From Chondrosia reniformis (Eukaryota > Porifera > Demospongiae > Chondrillida > Chondrillidae): a DNA stretch of 64,000 bases. Location of the stretch: the NCBI GenBank assembly GCA_947172415.1, contig OX359193.1, positions 6,938,501-7,002,500 on the forward strand. The letters run 5' to 3'. Under the pieces are notes generated by a model. That model ran no database searches, was not told the DNA's origin, and saw nothing but the letters and a program-made list of their open reading frames with translations. Of this stretch, positions 11,130 through 44,969 are shown one piece after another. Position 1 is the first letter of the stretch. Each line of letters opens with the position of its first letter. The position numbers and the translations under genes are program-made.

Positions 11130-19625
<8,496 letters not shown>

Positions 19626-33277: not shown

Positions 33278-34057
33278 TCACACTTTCCTTCGTTGAGTTC
33301 TTCCCTTGCAGTCAACTAGCTTATTCTTGGTGCTTGATGTTCTGGTGGAAGGCTTGCAGTCACTCTCTGGCGGAGATCTTGGGCTCATCTCTTCCAGTCT
33401 GGGAGACTTGACTTGAGAACAAACATCTCCACTTAGGAGATCATTTTCAGGCTGTTTTGATTCAGGAACATCTCTCCTCTCTACAGTAGTTGAAATGTCA
33501 GTCTGATCCACAGGTTGATTAGATAAATGGTTTTGAAATTCTAGTGGAACCGGCCGTTTAATGATATCCCATGGACAAACGTAATTAGAGTCCCAAACCT
33601 CTCGCAACAAATGAGTCACAGAATCGACTTGCCTGCTGGTCCTCGACTCATTCAATAAACTGCCATCGGGTTCTGAAAATGTTGCAGGTTTATACACATT
33701 CCGCAACAAGAAGCACAGGCGGTGATAGCAGCGTACCACCATTTGAATCTGTTGGGCAGATTCCAAACCATTTCGCTCTTTACATTGTCTACAGCGGATT
33801 GGCCATTCGGGTTCAACAAACTGGCAATTGTAGCAGTAATGGTGATCACAGATTGGCGACACCATAGCTTCCGTTAATATCTTACTACACGCACAACATG
33901 ATACAAGTTTTCGCAGGTACGGTAGTCGACTCCGTAAAAGTTCTGCGTCCTCTACGCCGTCGCCATGTTGAGCTTGTAGATTTAACACGTTTTGTAAAAC
34001 CATGGCATAGACTTCCGTAGCACAAGCTGCAACACCAGCGCTCCTTGGCAAAGGCAT
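33278..34057 (-). CDS. MSL2-like RING finger protein (short form)
   Basis: One exon of 259 residues from the ATG at 34057 (frames further up start without ATG). An N-terminal helical part LLRSRLPYLRKLVSCCACS leads into a C3HC4 RING: CxxC, then CDHHYCYNC, then CRQC, followed by the QMVVRCYHRLCFLL helix. The order and spacing match the N-terminus of male-specific-lethal 2, a ubiquitin E3 of the MSL histone acetyltransferase complex. The C-terminal half is Ser/Pro/Lys-rich with no evident CXC domain. It is about half the usual animal MSL2 length. Either the CXC part was lost or never present, or this is a paralogue. It lies head to head with PCCB, starts 147 bp apart. Confidence 0.6.
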   Translation of the reverse strand: MPLPRSAGVAACATEVYAMVLQNVLNLQAQHGDGVEDAELLRSRLPYLRKLVSCCACSKILTEAMVSPICDHHYCYNCQFVEPEWPIRCRQCKERNGLESAQQIQMVVRCYHRLCFLLRNVYKPATFSEPDGSLLNESRTSRQVDSVTHLLREVWDSNYVCPWDIIKRPVPLEFQNHLSNQPVDQTDISTTVERRDVPESKQPENDLLSGDVCSQVKSPRLEEMSPRSPPESDCKPSTRTSSTKNKLVDCKGRTQRRKV

Positions 34058-34204
34058 TGAGGAGACAAAATACAAAGAGTAACGCGGTAGTCAATCTGAT
34101 GCATACAGCCCACAGCACCAATCCCACCAGCCAGCCTCCATTTTGAATGACGTCATCGAAGCTACTAATTAACAGCTGACCACAGGGGCGGAGCATTTAA
34201 TAAA
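34058..34204. promoter_or_regulatory. Divergent promoter region of the MSL2-like gene and PCCB
   Basis: Only 147 bp separate the two start codons. It includes a small GC-rich patch, accacaggggcggagc, just upstream of the PCCB ATG, which resembles an Sp/KLF GC box. Confidence 0.5.
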
Positions 34205-37200
34205 ATGGCTGCAGTACTGCGTAGCTGTCGTGCCCTCCGAAAGTCTTTTGCCCCCAAATCGCTTACTTTGTCACATGTACGATGGTTGGCAGCACAACCT
34301 GGAGAGATATTGGAAGTTAAGCGTCAAAATGCTCTCATTGGTGGAGGGGCTAAGCGAATCGAGAACCAGCATAGAAAAGTACATGTCTAAATAGATATAC
34401 TACTGTAGACAAGATTCAAGTCAGTCTGTATACGACGGCACATTCCTTTAAATGTCGCTATCCTTGTAAATTGATTAATAGAGCTATCTTGGCTGTTTTA
34501 TTAATTTATTTATGCTGTGAATAGGGAAGGCTGACTGCTCGCGAGCGAATAGAGTTACTTCTAGATCCCGGCTCTTTTAAGGAATATGACATGTTTGTGG
34601 AGCATTCATGCACTGCATTTGGTATGGACGCACCTGACAACAAGGTATGGTTTGACAAGACAGTGACAGTTAATTTTGTGATTGGAATGCAGGGGTCGTG
34701 TATTTTAATTCATTTGATACTCTTTAATTTTATTTCATTCTGTTAAAATGTTTTGGAAATTTTATTACAACTATAATTGTGATTGTGCTTCTAAAATAAT
34801 TCTTTTAAACCTAATGCCCAGTGGGCGTTATCCATATGCATATCACCAAACACTGGTTGTTGAAGGCATATGCTAATGGCAATGTGAATGGCAGTGTGAA
34901 CATGATTATATATACTTAACAGTGGATGTATGCTTAACAACAGTACTGTATTTGGCGCTGTACCATGTATGGGCCAACCAAGTGTATTGAAAACTGGACC
35001 AACGGCACTAAATTAGCAAAGAGAACTAGTGTTTAATAAAAAAGAACCTTTTCCAATCAATTTAAGGTTGAATGCTACACATTCTAACAGTACCTTCTTT
35101 AGTGGATGCAAGTGTTGCACTGCTTGTCACTGACAGTGCAGCACTACAAAAGTAGAAATGTATGTCTTGTCGTTAGTTCCCAGGTGACGGAGTGGTAACG
35201 GGTCAAGGACTTATAAATGGCCGACCAGTGTTTCTCTTCAGTCAGGTATGTATGAATGTGTTCATGTGACAAACTTATAAATTTTGATGTGTGATTTGTA
35301 CTGACAGGTGTTATAGATAAGAATATGTGAAATTCATCAGATTAGATGCTTTTCTGTGAAACATTACATTGCTTACATTTTTCATAGGATTTCACAGTTT
35401 TTGGTGGAAGTTTGTCAAGTATGCATGCCAAAAAGATATGCAAGGTGATCTACTATACCAATCCTTTTGGAACAGAGCCCGATACCCATACCTGTAGAGA
35501 CAGTACATCTATAAGACAAGCAATCCATACAAGTTATTTCTCAACATATGTTGTCACACTCAGTTGACTTGGAACTGTTTATATCTCTCAGGTGATGGAC
35601 AAGGCACTGGAAGTGGGTGCCCCAGTTATTGGGCTTAATGACTCTGGTGGTGCCAGAATACAAGAGGGAGTGGATTCACTGGCAGGCTATGCCGATATAT
35701 TCTTAGTGAGGCCACCATTACCTTACAATGGGAGTGTTATATGTACCTAATGTACCTAATGTATACGGAAGTAGTTGCCATTTTCTTCCTAAAGAAGGAG
35801 TGTGTCCCCTATTGTGAGGTCATGCAATCTGACTGATTACATTGGATGTATTGCGCTGGCTGTGATAGATTATGTGCCAATTATGTTGCAATAAAGGTGA
35901 CTGATTGTGTAATCACGATGTAATGTCACCTGAGTGACTTGTAATGAATCTGGCCTACTGGTTATGAAAGGAACAAGGTATTAGCTTTCCAGCTAATTAT
36001 GTTGGTCGGCAATATATAATATTCCAAGTGTAATTGTGTTCTTAGAAATGTCAGCTATTTTACAACAGTATTCAGATAGACATATTGTATATCTCACTCA
36101 TCTCAAAATTGTATTACTTCTTTAACACACTATTTGCTGCACCTACTCTGTGGGTTTTTAGACTGTCTTGCCTACCTGCCTTGGAGATACATTCACCGAC
36201 TATATACAGTATGTAGGACAATAGTGGGAGAGGGGGTAGGGAGAGCATTTGCCCCCTCTTTAAATATCCTCCCTCTCCTTGATAAAGTCTTAATAGCTAA
36301 CAAGATTGCCCCATCTATATCTTACTACACATTGGATATGCCCCCCCTCCCTTGTGATATTTCTAAAAGAAACCTGCATTAGGTTCCCTAAAGATAGTCA
36401 ATTTCAATTTTCCTTCACTTTCACTGTGTGTAGAGGAATGTAATGGTGTCTGGGGTGATTCCTCAGATATCCCTAATAATGGGACCCTGTGCTGGAGGGG
36501 CAGTATATTCACCTGCCATCACTGACTTTACCTTCATGGTCAAGAATTCATCTTACCTCTTTGTGACAGGACCAGATGTGGTAGAGGTTTGTTAACACTT
36601 TGTAGTCAGACAGGGTTGCTTGTGTAAGAGTAACACTTCCTTGTGTTATGCACAGCTCAGTTGACTATAAAGTTGTCAGTTTACAAGTTTCCTATTCACC
36701 AAGTACATGACTGCCTTGTGGAGGACTCATCTGATTGGGTGTATTGTGTATACAGTAGCTGGTGTGCTGTGTCCACTCACAGTTTTATGTGATCAGATTG
36801 TGTGCTTGACGTATGCTCTCTCGGACCCAGGGGTGGATCTAGAAAGGGGGTGCTAAGTTATATATGAATGCATAGTCAAACTCAGAGTGGGTATGTCAGT
36901 ACTTAGAGCTCCTCCCTAAACCGACCACTGGACCAGAATGACAGTCAGCCTGATTGGGATATACTAGTATATTGTCACACTTAACTTGCACACTTATCTA
37001 ATGGCATTAGTAGTATCCAGTAATATGTTATCCTTACAGCAAGTGACGAAGGAGGTGGTTACATTTGAAGAGCTTGGGGGGGCCGCCACCCACTCCAAGA
37101 AATCTGGTGTCTCTCACAGAGCATTTGCCAATGACATTGATGCTTTGTCTCAGTAGGTCTACAGACATCCAACACACACATACACACGTAGCTATATCAT

Positions 37201-39630
37201 CTCACTTAACATCTTATAGGTTAAGAGAACTATTTGACTTTCTACCACTGAGTAACGCTCAAAAGAGTCCAATTAGACAGACATCTGACTCAAGGTAGGT
37301 GTGCATTAATAGGAATGTATCTAGAGGCAGAGATGTACTTTGAATATTGTATTGCTAAGAATTGAATTGAATTGAATTTTAATTGGGAAAGCCACTAGCT
37401 GAATAGCTACTACTAAAGGATATACGTATATAAAAGGATAAGAATGTACTTGGATGGGGAATAAACAGGTTCAAATAAATATGATTTACAGACTTGAAGA
37501 ATGATTCTTTAGATTTGATTATGGTAGGGAGTGAGTTCCAAATTGAGGTGCCTTGAAAACAAAAGGATTTCTTGCCAAAGTTGCTATGAACTTTAGGGAG
37601 GGAGAGGATTAGATAAGAATAAAAAATATGAAATACTCATTTCAACTGATCATCTGTTTCTTTATAGCCAGCTATTATTGTATATGTCATTCAATCCTTT
37701 TCATTTCTGGTACTAATGTTGTTTTGTTCTTAATGGAAGAAGTTTGTAGGGGATTTTTGTTAATGGTACATAACCTCTTGAACTTACTGTAAGTCTTCAT
37801 TTTAAGAACACTAATGGTGTAATACAAGATGTACAAGTGTGCTCTGTAGGGTGTGACCAATACGCATGACATAATATGTACTCATGCACAGTTTGGCGTG
37901 TACTTGAAAGTGTTTTTGTTATCTTTAGGGACCGCCTAATCCCTGCTCTGAATAGCATCATTCCTCCTTACCCCAACCAACCCTACGACCTTCATGACAT
38001 CATCAAACTGGTACATCACTATCACCATCACTGATCACCATCACCATCACTGATCACCATCACTGATCACTATCACCATCACTATTACTGATCACTATCA
38101 CCATCACTGATCACCATCACTATCACCATCACTGATCACTATCACCATCACTGATCACTATCACAATCACTGATCACCATCACCATCACCATCACTGATC
38201 ACTATCACCATCACTGGTCACTGTGAACATCGCTATTGTTCAAATCCTTATCCTACTCCAGGTTATTGATGAGGCAAATTTCTTTGAGATAATGCCAGAC
38301 TATGCTAAGAATATCGTAGTTGGCTTTGCTAGAATGGATGGCCGCACTGTTGGGATTGTGGGAAACCAGCCCCAGCAGAAGGCTGGATGCCTTGACATCA
38401 ATTCCTCAGTAAAAGGGGCTCGTTTTGTTAGATTTTGTGATGCATTCAACATTCCTCTCATCACATTTGTAGATGTCCCAGGATTTCTACCAGGTACCCT
38501 ATAGCAGTTACTTAGTAACTTAGGCAATCATTAATCTGTCTCACCCAGGAACCGATCAGGAGTATGGTGGAATAATTAGACAGGGTGCCAAGTTGCTGTA
38601 TGCGTATGCTGAAGCTACAGTCCCTAAGCTGGCCGTCATTACCAGAAAGGTGGGAAGCACAGACTCAGAGCTCTGTCCCTCTCTACCTGCCCCCTCTTCC
38701 TCCCTCCTCAGGCCTTTGGGGGTGCCTATGATGTAATGAGCTCCAAGCATCTCCGTGGAGATATCAACTATGCCTGGCCCACTGCCCAAGTAGCTGTTAT
38801 GGGACCTGAAGGAGCGGTGGCCATTTTACACAAGAGAAAAGAACAGGAACTACGTTAGTAACCATAAAAGTAACTGTTCCTAATGGATTTGTATAAAGGT
38901 TGAAGTCTGTTCTGATCTTGCACAATATCACTTATCTGACTATATACTATAATAATTATATAAACTTCTTATTTGATGTTTAGGACAAGAGCATATCACA
39001 GAGCTGTTGGAGTCAGAGAGCATTCACTTGAGAAAGATATTAAACCACATCCCTAGATTCCTCACACCAGATGTTTTACCTGAGTATGACCCTATCATTA
39101 ACCTATTAGATTCACTAGGATATTTTAGCACTGATGATAAGGCTACAATTTCAGACTTAAGGGAAACTCCAAAGAAACTGGGTCACTTTGTCAGTAGTGC
39201 AGTCCAGACCAAAGGTGAGGTGTTCCTGAGACACCTCATTGAGGCACTGAGAGATGGCTACCAGCAGCATACAGCCTACAAGAAGCTACTGCAGACCCTC
39301 TACCTGTTTCTGGACAGAGGTACCATCTGACTATACAGGATCAAACGGATTTATATGACAACTAATTTCCCTTTTTCTCTCCTTTCAGTTAAGAATGAAA
39401 TTGAGTATGAACAGACCCTTTGCAACCCCTACCAGGCAGCTGCCAGAGGTTAGACACTTGTGGGAGTGGTCACTGTTAAATGTAATTTTAAATTGTTACA
39501 CCTTCCAGGTTTCCTTGATGACATAATTGAACCAGCAACCACAAGAAAAAAACTCTGTGAAGATTTGGAACTTTTGGATGCTAAGGAACAGATGATGCCA
39601 AAGAAAAAACATGGAAATATTCCTTTATGA
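34205..39630 (+). CDS. PCCB: Propionyl-CoA carboxylase beta chain, mitochondrial, with extra CARD-like exon
   Basis: Carboxyltransferase subunit that converts propionyl-CoA to methylmalonyl-CoA in the matrix. Fifteen exons: 34205-34378, 34525-34644, 35177-35245, 35388-35444, 35592-35705, 36434-36586, 37040-37152, 37220-37294, 37929-38010, 38262-38493, 38549-38649, 38712-38853, 38984-39319, 39389-39448, 39509-39630; phases all join. Without exon 38984-39319 the protein has 537 residues, the usual PCCB length; with it, 649. The N-terminus is a basic, Ser/Leu-rich mitochondrial presequence. Conserved segments: [91 protein letters not shown], and the C-terminal [13 protein letters not shown]1 follows 184 bp downstream. 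Confidence 0.96.
38012..38222 (+). repeat. Minisatellite of CATCAC/TGATCAC units
   Basis: About 200 bp of short units (atcaccatcactgatcac and variants) filling most of the PCCB intron between exons ending at 38010 and starting at 38262. Confidence 0.92.
38984..39319 (+). other. CARD-like death-fold exon inside PCCB
   Basis: A 336-nt exon with phase 1 on both sides, so the frame is kept whether it is included or skipped. Skipping joins HKRKEQEL to [16 protein letters not shown], which aligns with ordinary PCCB. Inclusion adds 112 residues beginning [13 protein letters not shown]. The insert reads like a caspase recruitment domain: six predicted helices, [12 protein letters not shown], then [19 protein letters not shown], then the typical [17 protein letters not shown] and a final KKLL helix. 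Acceptor (tttag|G) and donor (GAGAG|GTACC) look normal. Confidence 0.75.
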
Positions 39631-39814: not shown

Positions 39815-40075
39815 ATGCCTTCCAAACAACTTATGAGAACAAAAAGCGGACAATATCAGCAAAACGTTCAAAAGCGGGGGCAGGTAGGAAAGACTTTGAA
39901 GGCCGAGAGCGACAAGTCGCCGGTCGGTCCGTACCTCTTAGCCCTTTTCGTCTTCGTAGTCTGCGGCTCAGGTTAGTTAGTTAAATCTGTAGCATGTTTA
40001 TCTAATAAGGTATTAAATAACTCTTTTATTCTCGCAGCTATTTTCCAGATAATTCAGAGCATCAGGATGGGTTGA
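39815..40075 (+). CDS. SERP1: Stress-associated ER protein SERP1/RAMP4
   Basis: Small tail-anchored protein bound to the Sec61 translocon. Two exons, 39815-39971 and 40038-40075, join in phase to give 64 residues, the normal family length (about 66). The N-terminal part is basic (MPSKQLMRTKSG). A Gly-Pro step then leads to one membrane helix, [20 protein letters not shown], ending IRMG. This gene is too short and split to show well as a long open frame; the longer frame starting at 39796 is a shadow in another phase. It lies just behind PCCB on the same strand. Confidence 0.93.
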
Positions 40076-40439: not shown

Positions 40440-43400
40440 TTATTGTTCCTTTGTTCTTTCTGATTGCTTGTCTTCTGTGACCTACACACAAAAGAAATCC
40501 ATAGTAATAGCTACTTGTTTGTGGATTAGACAATCATTGTGGTTTTCCAAGTTACTTCTGTCAGCCAAGTGCCCCTGAAAGGATTCCCCTTTACTTAAAA
40601 GGAAATGAAACCTCAATGCCAATTGGAAACATTGACATTTGATTCCGGACATCAGACCATATTTACAAAAGAGATACCACATTCATAAGTATTGGGTCAA
40701 CAGATGAGTCAATTTGTAGCAATGATGTACAGTAATCACATTCAGCAGAATGATAAGAACATACAGCATAAAATTTGTTTACTTAATAATACGTGTATTT
40801 GTTTACTTTCTGAAGATTTCTCCTCTTTTGCCATTTTTATTGCTTTTTTCTCTGAAGATGAAATCCCCTTACATTCTAAATAATGACCACTCTCTAAATG
40901 CTTGAGTTTGCACTTATTGCTGCAATAAAATATGATTTTACACATCTGGCATGGAAGTGGACTGGAATGTACATAACGGCCACAGCTGTAGCAAAACTGG
41001 TATATCATCAGTTGGCAGCTGTCTTTCTCCAACTGTGTTTCTGTCCCTATAGAGCATTCCTTTGGTTGAGGAAGAGAGCAGGATTGAGAGAGTCCTATCA
41101 CTGCAAATTTTATACTTTTCTTTGGTTTCTTCTGTGGATCAAATCGGCTTTCCTGTAAATGCCCAGATGGGTAACTTACTAATAAAGAAGGTTTGTATGA
41201 AACCTTTTCTGTTGCTTTGCTTGCTTCTGCAAATCAATGAATAACTAGTTCATGCACGTGACAGAAGAGAGACACCACACCATTCAAAATGGGCCTACCT
41301 GTTTGGCCAACAGCTTCTGTCTTCAGGAGAACCACCAGATGCTGAATAAGGAATTTGATGATTTGGATTTTTGTGTGACCACTCTTTACAGTCATACCAG
41401 AGACTGGTGGAAACGACATTACGTGTTTCCTCTACAAAACACCAATCCACAGCTGATATATGCATATACACTAAGTTGGTTGGATAGAGCCAAATTACAA
41501 ACCTTGTTGGATAGCTGTTGATATGCCCAGTCTATTACTGTTCCAATACACCTACCAACATCATCACCAGAGTCTACCAGCTGAGACACTTGAGCACCAT
41601 AGCACTTAAGCTTATTTATCTACATAACAATAAAAGATTCTAATCCGTTGGATTTTGAGAACAGAAGTAATCTTCAATGCACATACCATATTTATGGTGT
41701 CAGTACAGGATCTGTGGTGGAGGGCCTCTGGAGTAACTAGAGAGCACAGAGCTGACCCTACCGTTCTACCCAAGCAGAGTCCAGGATCAGCACCTCCATC
41801 CAGCAAAATGTCTATTACCTGTAATTAAAGCAATAAGAAGTGACACATTTTCATTATGTAAGGGAAATCTAAAGTACGTACTTTGTTCAGGTTGTGCACT
41901 ATGGCCAGGGAAAGGGGACTGTGATCTTGAGCTACCACATTTGGATCAGCACCATGTCGAAGCAAGATTGATACAACCTCAGATGCTATGCTGCTGTCAA
42001 GATTACCCTTCAGGCTACAGGCACAGTGAAGAGGCGTCCAGCCCTCTAGACCTTCCAAAGATGACCTAACCTTCTGATTTTTGACCTTTTCCAAACTCTT
42101 TGTTGGAGCTATGGCACAACCTTCATTTCTAGTGTTGGTAAAGGTATCGGGTAGAGCTCCAATGGTCAGTAGGTGCTCCAAGACCCTTGGTTTCCCCACT
42201 GCTATGGCCAGGTGGAGTGGAGAATAGCCTCCCTTACCAGCTGGCAAGCACAAGTCTAATGCTGCACCTTTGGACTGTAGTCTTGTCAGTCCTTCGTTGT
42301 CACCTGCTAGAGTAGCATAGTGAACTGGAGGCAGGGGATATGTGCAAATGTTTGCATCAGCCCCTCTAGATAAGAGTCGATCTATCATAGCTCCCGTATT
42401 TCTGTATGGAGAGAGCAATTGGTTATAAGCAAGACAAAATTACAATTCCATCTTTTAAAATACCCACCTCGTGATAAATTTTGTGTCACCTATTTCCAAT
42501 TTATGCTCAGTAATAAAAGGAGTAGAACTTTTTCCATCATCATCACAGTTGTCACTGTCACATAAGATAACAGTACTCTGGGCTGCACTTACAACTGATC
42601 CAAATGAAGAAGAGTTGAAAGAATACCGCATGTGATGGCCACCCCATGTCTGGCTTTCCGGTTGCTCATCCAGTGACAAGCTAATTACACTCTCTTCCTC
42701 TTCCAAGAGCCCACTACTTTCCTTTAGGGTACTAGGAGGGGCAGATGGAATACTCGGATGACCTGATGTACGCTCAAAATCTCTAACATCCACTCTCCTA
42801 TTCATCTGCGGTAACTCTGGATCAGAGTGAGAACTTGTCAGCCTAGATGCTTGCTTTATCAGCTCTTTACTAAGTGATCTTAGTTTCTGATTAGGAAAAT
42901 GCTGTTGCAGCACCTGTCTGGTAGCTTGAATAGTTGGGAGGGTAGTGGATTCTTCTTTGTCACCCCAACTCTTTGGGTCTGGCTTATCCTTTTCAACCCA
43001 GCAAAATTTAGCCAAGGAGCTTGGGTGAATAACAGCCTGATTTATTTCACCATTGATCACTCTTTCTCTTTGCAAAAATCTTTTGGAGGGAGGAGTAGCT
43101 GATGTATGGTGGAGCTGTGGACTTAAAGAGCTCCTTGTAGTGGATCCTGAGTTACTCCTTTCTCTTCTCAAGGGGACTGGTGAATGGAAGCCCCTTAGTC
43201 TATTTGCCATGAGACTGCTAAGTGGCGAGGCACTCACTGATGAAATGCTAGAATTAAAGTCTGTGCATGTAGATACAAAGTTTGACATGATCCCAGAAGG
43301 TGAGATTGTCATAGGTGTGTTTTGTTGGCTGTCAAATTCAAAAGGTGTTCCAGAGACTGTGTATCCAAGATCACTAGAGTCTATAGTGTATTCTGATGCA

Positions 43401-44969
43401 TCTAGAGATGTTTCTGCTCCACTTCTCAAATCATATAAATGATACTGTCAGAAAGTGAAAAGAAAGGGGACAAAAACAGTAAAATATACATAAGGACGTA
43501 AGCATTGATACACCATTCAAATGTAAATGTAGCATCAGACATAGTGAGGATTGGTCTAATTACTACCATTCTGTAGATGTTCATCCATATTTGGAACCCA
43601 ATTTTGAAATTACACATACCTTTGTGTGTCCCACTTGAGCCTTGTAGTGAAGATGATAGCAAGCAGAGAGTGGAGTGTACTGGGAAGTAGCAACTCTATT
43701 AACGTCTGCTCCTTCATTCAAAAGGAAATCTACCAGTTCAACATGTCCATGTATGCTGGCAGCAAACAGTGCAGACACCCCCATTCTATCAACCACATCT
43801 ACATACACCAGTCCAGAATGCACCAGGCTCGCCATCCTATCCAGATTACCTTGACAAGCTGATAGAATCAGCTCTTGAGATGCCATCTGAAGCAAAATTA
43901 ACAAAAGTGCTATATTATACGCTGTACTAGTAGAGCTATATTTTATAATTAACTGCTGAGTTAGATCAAAAGTCTGTGCGGCAAATATATACATATAAGC
44001 ACCTGATTCATATACATGTACATTTCAAGGTGCTAGTTGAAAGCATTTTGCACAAATAATAATGTAATGTGATAATTTATCATAAATATACAACATGCAG
44101 TTATAAATCAATCATTAGCAAGTTACAATTACACATAAGGTTCATTGTTGCATCAAGGGATAAGTACCTCAAGTGGTCCCTTTGGTAGATGGTTCCCTCG
44201 ACTTTTGAGATCAGGTGTGTACAAAGTGTAGGAGTCTGAGTACAAAGGGGAGGATGCTTCTGGAAGGGCAAACTTCAACTGGATCAATTTACTTCCTCTC
44301 CACATGCCAACATCCTGTCTCCTGTTAACATATGTCATTGTACCTTCTCCATGGCGAATATCATCTTTATACATACCCTAATATTTGAAATTAATTATAC
44401 CTTACATTATATTCTCAAAATCATAACAATAGTCATAATTCTGTACTGCGCAAAGATTTTCCTTACTTCAAATGTCTCTTCTTGAGCAGATACATAAATA
44501 CCGTGTCCATCTCTCTTATCTTCTCTGAATGAACCAGTGAATGTCGCACCGGACGGCCAAGTATATCTCCCTCTTCCCTCGCGTCTGTCCTGCACAAATT
44601 CTCCTTCATAACACTATAGAAGCAGAAACGAGAATTGTAAAAAGTAATACTCCAATATTTGGCAACCACAGAAAGAAGCTACGATTAAATAAAAATCTTA
44701 AGGGTAGGTATTTTTCTTACTTCTCCAGAAGGCCATACGTGTTTGCCGAAGCCGTGACGCATGTCATTTGCAAAATTTCCTTCATAAGTCGATCCGTCAC
44801 TCCACCGTTGGATCCCAAAACCATGTCGTTTACCATCCCTCAAATCGCCGTGATATTCCATATTCTGTGCAGATGGAACGGCAGCAATACGGGATCTATA
44901 CTGAGAACTGTCTGCAGTGACCTTCACCTCCTTTCCTTCTGGTAGACTATTTACAATGTTTCGCTCCAT
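40440..44969 (-). CDS. ANKMY1: Ankyrin repeat and MYND zinc finger protein with MORN repeats (ANKMY1-like)
   Basis: Exons: 44969-44721, 44613-44467, 44377-44168, 43886-43620, 43444-42468, 42401-41882, 41818-41687, 41619-41503, about 41426 to about 41293, a 23-nt exon near 41227-41205, 41152-40793, 40481-40440. Order of domains: four or so MORN repeats (YHGDLRDGKRHGFG, YEGNFANDMRHGFG, YEGEFVQDRREGRG, FTGSFREDKRDGHG), an ankyrin block (VSALFAASIHGHVELVDFLLNEGADVN), a 325-residue Ser-rich disordered exon, more ankyrins (YSPLHLAIAVGKPRVLEHLL, WTPLHCACSLKG, ILLRHGADPN), and a C-terminal MYND finger CYSCGRY to HYLEC. This matches ANKMY1, an uncharacterised, probably cilium- or testis-related protein. 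The 3' small exons are the least certain part. Confidence 0.85.

Follow-up and report, generated by a model that had tools for sequence, protein, structure and literature searches.

Does the propionyl-CoA carboxylase of a sponge carry a death-fold domain within one of its chains? The question is raised by a stretch of 64,000 nucleotides from Chondrosia reniformis (the window), in which the gene for the beta chain of the enzyme, PCCB, was predicted to contain a symmetric exon for a CARD-like domain, placed so that it could be skipped or included without disturbing the reading frame. It involves two separate issues: whether this stretch, exon 13 of the gene model, is an exon of PCCB, and whether its product is a CARD.

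The flanking exons belong to PCCB, on one strand and in one frame, as is evident from the gene model (Table 1) and from alignment with human PCCB. The original prediction was correct on this point, as it was on the coordinates, the 1-1 phase and the frame of exon 13. When the exon is skipped, a normal PCCB of 537 residues results, of which residues 24-537 match the human protein (E = 2.3e-243); homology to PCCB extends over the full length and both halves of the carboxyltransferase, and thereby identifies the product as a carboxyltransferase beta chain. Exon 13 comprises 336 nt, or 112 codons without a stop in the PCCB frame, and since it is entered and left in phase 1 its inclusion adds exactly 112 residues, as had been claimed, generating a form of 649 residues (Pfam Carboxyl_trans, E = 9.6e-196). 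A search of the whole genome (117,379,552 bases in 15 contigs) with the skip form, by a tool that scores only its best candidates, returned 15 matches, 14 of which are pieces of this gene and the other a 37%-identical, single-frame carboxyltransferase on contig C14, probably another member of the family such as MCCC2; this is therefore the only PCCB locus detected, no second one having been found among the candidates scored. Read by eye in the translation, the N-terminus of the protein is basic, with no acidic residue before E34, and looks like a mitochondrial presequence.

Table 1. Features of the PCCB gene, in window positions; a slash marks an exon-intron border.
Feature	Position	Strand	Basis or detail
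PCCB, complete gene	34205-39630	+	15 exons, all joins GT-AG, open reading frame
PCCB exons 1-4	34205-34378, 34525-34644, 35177-35245, 35388-35444	+	GT-AG joins, open frame, human PCCB alignment
PCCB exons 5-8	35592-35705, 36434-36586, 37040-37152, 37220-37294	+	GT-AG joins, open frame, human PCCB alignment
PCCB exons 9-12	37929-38010, 38262-38493, 38549-38649, 38712-38853	+	GT-AG joins, open frame, human PCCB alignment
Possible mitochondrial presequence	34205-34300	+	Translation read by eye, about the first 32 residues
PCCB intron 12, 130 nt, phase 1	38854-38983	+	Donor TAC/GTTAGT
PCCB exon 13, symmetric phase 1-1, 336 nt, 112 residues, CARD-like	38984-39319	+	
PCCB intron 13, 69 nt, phase 1	39320-39388	+	Acceptor TTTCTCTCCTTTCAG
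PCCB exon 14, directly after the length-variable segment	39389-39448	+	Gene model, PCCB alignment
PCCB exon 15, C-terminus ..KKHGNIPL and stop	39509-39630	+	Gene model, PCCB alignment

The point at which the 112 residues would enter the enzyme was located through five alignments of the skip form, with human PCCB in two versions and with the PCC beta chains 3n6r, 8sgx and 6ybp. Beyond approximately query residue 100, length differences occur only at residues 473-478, where relatives have one or three residues more, or one less; the insertion point of exon 13 is residue 478, with ..KRKEQEL before it and KNEIEYEQ.. after it, in the C-terminal half of the carboxyltransferase. Since this segment is variable in length, the enzyme should be capable of folding both with and without the insert. 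We take the segment around the insertion point to be a helical hairpin, with the insert perhaps at its tip; in a death fold, both ends lie close together. For the PCC of Leishmania, the passage considered here names alpha-beta contacts among which the segment of the presumed insert does not figure, the residue numberings of the two proteins being unreconciled (PMC10148081).

Several lines of comparison point to CARD. In a scan of the exon 13 peptide against 24,736 Pfam families, CARD (PF00619) was the sole family returned, with a match covering residues 46-98 of the searched peptide (E = 0.0027, 18.1 bits; E = 0.0022 and 18.4 bits for a trimmed version). On a profile built from 30 CARD loci of C. 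reniformis itself, exon 13 and its own open reading frame (ORF) ranked first among the 417 window ORFs of at least 50 aa (HMMER, 9.0 bits). Employing hhalign with the same profile, exon 13 scored 22.7, above every shuffle in three sets of 60, 30 and 250 (340 altogether, with best scores of 15.1, 14.4 and 22.2, respectively), and was also first among the 119 window ORFs of at least 80 aa, the best other ORF reaching 16.2. The profile can be considered sound because ten of its loci, once aligned, retrieve APAF1, caspase-9, BCL10 and other solved CARDs. Furthermore, the similarity favours CARD over Death and DED, exon 13 lying above 30 of 30 shuffles on the CARD profile and below the best shuffle on the own-genome profiles of the other two (13.6 versus 18.7 for Death, 18.4 versus 19.25 for DED). 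When aligned with ten CARDs, its hydrophobic positions fit, but identities are only 8-20%.

Other comparisons set the exon apart from recognized CARDs. The Pfam match lies under the curated cut-off of 23.9 bits, and it drops to 14.9 bits (E = 0.026) when the exon is searched inside the whole protein; exon 13 is also absent from the matches of a genome-wide CARD search, performed with a tool whose first look is partial. Scored by HMMER on the same-genome profile, two of 2,000 shuffles exceed it and 1,998 fall below. CARDs left out of the profile, with their close relatives removed, reached 43.46-85.84 in 28 of the 29 cases scored (the remaining one, a short match, reached 20.58, and one of the 30 went unscored), while weaker CARDs of the genome, with Pfam scores like that of exon 13 (17.8-20 bits), reached 31.71-102.91 in 20 of 20 cases, some of them being close relatives of profile members. 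In addition, the best of 30 Death domains scored 21.9 on the CARD profile, just below the 22.7 of exon 13. The score of the exon is outside the range of same-genome CARDs and, judged by these comparisons, falls between theirs and the level of noise. The Pfam search returned none of the Death, DED or PYD families at E <= 10, with filters that may drop weak matches; NCBIfam yielded nothing, and the four PDB entries that a sequence search retrieved at E <= 10 include no death fold, the best being an endonuclease (E = 0.059). A ten-CARD profile to which exon 13 had been added is uninformative on the exon, since the same solved CARDs are found with or without it.

The proposed CARD-like identity, for which comparison of the 112 residues with CARD, DD, DED and PYD profiles had been suggested, consequently holds in part: CARD is the only one of these families to respond, but it does so below the cut-off, below nearly every CARD of the same genome and barely above the best shuffle. 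Exon 13 would encode either a CARD-like domain that has diverged very far or a helical insert without relation to CARD, and the evidence is no more than suggestive of a CARD. Provided that the exon is real, we consider a death-fold product fairly probable. A tentative but credible alternative is that exon 13 genuinely belongs to PCCB but encodes something other than a death fold, namely a lineage-specific helical extension of the length-variable C-terminal segment that resembles CARD by chance; such an extension would agree with the low standing of the score, with insertion at a naturally length-variable segment and with the lack of a relative of exon 13 elsewhere in the genome, but a chance resemblance sits poorly with the return of CARD alone out of all Pfam families, and with a CARD similarity that tops the window ORFs and is specific as compared to Death or DED.

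Regarding the first issue, the anatomy of exon 13 suggests a genuine exon, its splicing into mRNA being what we infer from it. Its borders are an acceptor, TTATTTGATGTTTAG/GA, and a donor, GAG/GTACCATC, with leave-one-out scores of 5.13 (gene range -1.69 to 10.85) and 5.98 (gene range 0.45-9.46), respectively; sites that score at least as high number 241 of 4,119 AGs and 196 of 3,909 GTs in the window. G+C content is 0.44, versus 0.27 and 0.36 in the two adjoining introns. Codon log-odds of +0.075 in the true frame, versus -0.34 to -0.52 in the remaining five, provide weak support, both because the values of the other frames include a penalty for their stops and because the codon score is middling among the 66 open stretches of at least 100 codons in the window, many of which are not necessarily coding. 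The likelihood of such an arrangement arising by chance was assessed by simulating 6,000 stretches of 535 nt under each of three models (intron, own composition and window) and counting any symmetric phase-1 AG..GT frame of at least 300 nt. Such frames arose in 18, 15 and 28 cases, respectively (0.25-0.5%, a rate per stretch, in a window that has many introns), and those in which both splice scores equalled or exceeded those of exon 13 in 0, 1 and 0.

It is nevertheless conceivable, if improbable, that the stretch is unused, as a decayed or never-spliced open frame, and that the mRNA joins 38853 directly to 39389. PCCB is complete without exon 13, and skipping should be favoured by the combination of a weakish intron 12 donor (2.66, the fourth lowest of the gene's 14) and an intron 13 acceptor that is the strongest of the gene (10.85), the sites of exon 13 itself being within the gene range. 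Against this stand the exon-like G+C content, the 112 codons free of stops and frame breaks, and the fact that a comparable symmetric, phase-matched frame with equal splice sites arose at most once in 6,000 stretches per model. The splice site scores are consistent with exon 13 being, probably, a cassette exon. That it belongs to some other transcript, as a gene of its own, an alternative last exon or part of an overlapping gene, is hardly credible: the stop three codons past its donor, when the frame is extended, makes a last-exon form conceivable, but exon 13 has no Met codon in frame, its phases match PCCB on both sides, no AATAAA or ATTAAA was seen by eye within 39320-39388, and introns of just 130 and 69 nt leave no room for a separate CARD gene.

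If exon 13 does encode a diverged CARD, potential donors exist, given the many CARDs of this genome. A profile search yielded at least 90 CARD matches at E <= 1, at least 36 of them over the cut-off, with a model that was also matched, below the cut-off, in two of the 14 control genomes from prokaryotes. For Death, at least 150 matches were obtained at E <= 0.01. Many CARD and Death exons are clustered on contigs C2 (approximately 1.1-2.5 Mb) and C7 (approximately 6.0-6.1 Mb), and several Death matches on C2 hold TAG. Downstream of the 30 CARD loci, the donor with the highest score falls in phase 1 in 19 cases, versus 122 of 366 candidate GTs, and upstream of them the best acceptor does so in only six, perhaps because several CARDs start at Met; only four loci are 1-1. 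The latter two counts leave the idea of a ready-made 1-1 CARD module without support, and all of these phase counts offer a hint only, as related loci are not independent.

Specific sources for the exon were also considered and rejected. Recent duplication of some other CARD exon was set aside, since neither a paralogue nor a DNA copy of exon 13 or its introns was found elsewhere in the genome. Insertion by way of a repeat was set aside as well, because a search around the exon detected no repeats, direct or inverted, of at least 14 bases. Among 124 candidate prokaryotic stretches there was a single match (L032:5001-5237, 31% identity), located within a 734-residue Phycisphaerales ORF that shares the eight-residue word PDVLPEYD and some following residues with exon 13; it was judged to be due to chance. 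A viral scan gave none among 12 candidates.

The surroundings of the gene do not point to an immune gene cluster: of 20 long window ORFs scanned with Pfam at E <= 0.001, the 12 that match a family correspond to PARG, OST48, RPB1 (three), RRM, MSL2 RING, ankyrin (two), MYND, HAD and myotubularin, with no CARD or Death among them. Pieces of a gene for RPB1, the largest subunit of RNA polymerase II, occupy 11133-18708 on the minus strand, with C-terminal heptad repeats at the 3' end. The ORF with the MSL2-type RING (33281-34090, minus strand), just above the Pfam cut-off, lies head-to-head with PCCB, and the two may therefore share a promoter. Just 3' of PCCB, a short two-exon reading frame (approximately 39815-40075, plus strand) presumably resembles SERP1/RAMP4, and beyond it the ankyrin-repeat ORFs and the MYND finger ORF (40742-44024, minus strand) perhaps form a single gene that faces PCCB.

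The reading preferred here, which as a whole we hold to be about evenly poised between right and wrong, is that a genuine symmetric coding exon was gained within an intron of the sole PCCB gene detected, and that its roughly 112 residues make up a helical insertion domain, which most likely is a CARD-like (death-fold) module that has diverged strongly. Placed at the one length-variable segment of the C-terminal half, the insert would allow the enzyme to fold in its presence or absence. The gene model, the phases, the open frame, the insertion site and the single detected locus are observations; in the scheme that follows, mRNA splicing, CARD-like fold, position on the enzyme and function are inferred. 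The protein would be imported into mitochondria and the insert would fold independently. With the exon included, the beta-6 core of the mitochondrial alpha-6-beta-6 enzyme would bear as many as six of these domains, whose role would most plausibly lie in assembly or docking and not in catalysis. A further-reaching proposal, which we regard as unlikely, is that a CARD-like polymerising domain in the sole PCCB detected allows the carboxylase to be drawn into death-fold assemblies, one alternative exon thus acting as a switch for propionate metabolism and innate signalling or filament formation. In view of the mitochondrial-looking presequence alone, contact with cytosolic CARD partners would be less, not more, expected, and a link to death signalling would call for a partner to bind in the compartment that the enzyme occupies.

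If exon 13 is spliced in, it would represent a clean exon gain in a housekeeping gene: one symmetric exon, at a site that tolerates changes in length, would have brought an entire domain to an old and highly conserved mitochondrial enzyme. Should that domain be a true CARD, it would connect propionate metabolism physically and directly to the assembly of death folds. Judged by title or the start of the abstract, the matches listed from the open-access literature included no report of a PCC-CARD fusion, and the four that contained both PCC and CARD terms were, by title, three pharmacology guides and one review on skin disease.

In comparison with known systems, the skip form is an ordinary PCCB, aligning over residues 24-537 with the human chain (7YBU_C, E = 2.3e-243), whereas the include form exceeds human PCCB and the PCC beta chains by 112 residues at a place where the five aligned chains differ by three at most. 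With respect to CARD (PF00619), the residue pattern over peptide residues 46-98 is like that of APAF1 and of this genome's own CARDs, although exon 13 remains below the cut-off and scores under nearly every same-genome CARD tested. The usual setting of a CARD is an immune receptor or a caspase, and here it would be embedded in an enzyme. In the sponge Dysidea avara, the portion of the report considered here gives 39 CARD and 128 DEATH genes (PMC12909245), numbers that suggest an abundance of donors among sponges; in the NLRs described there, CARD or Death is N-terminal to NACHT-LRR, whereas the CARD-like domain of C. reniformis would sit inside an enzyme of metabolism.
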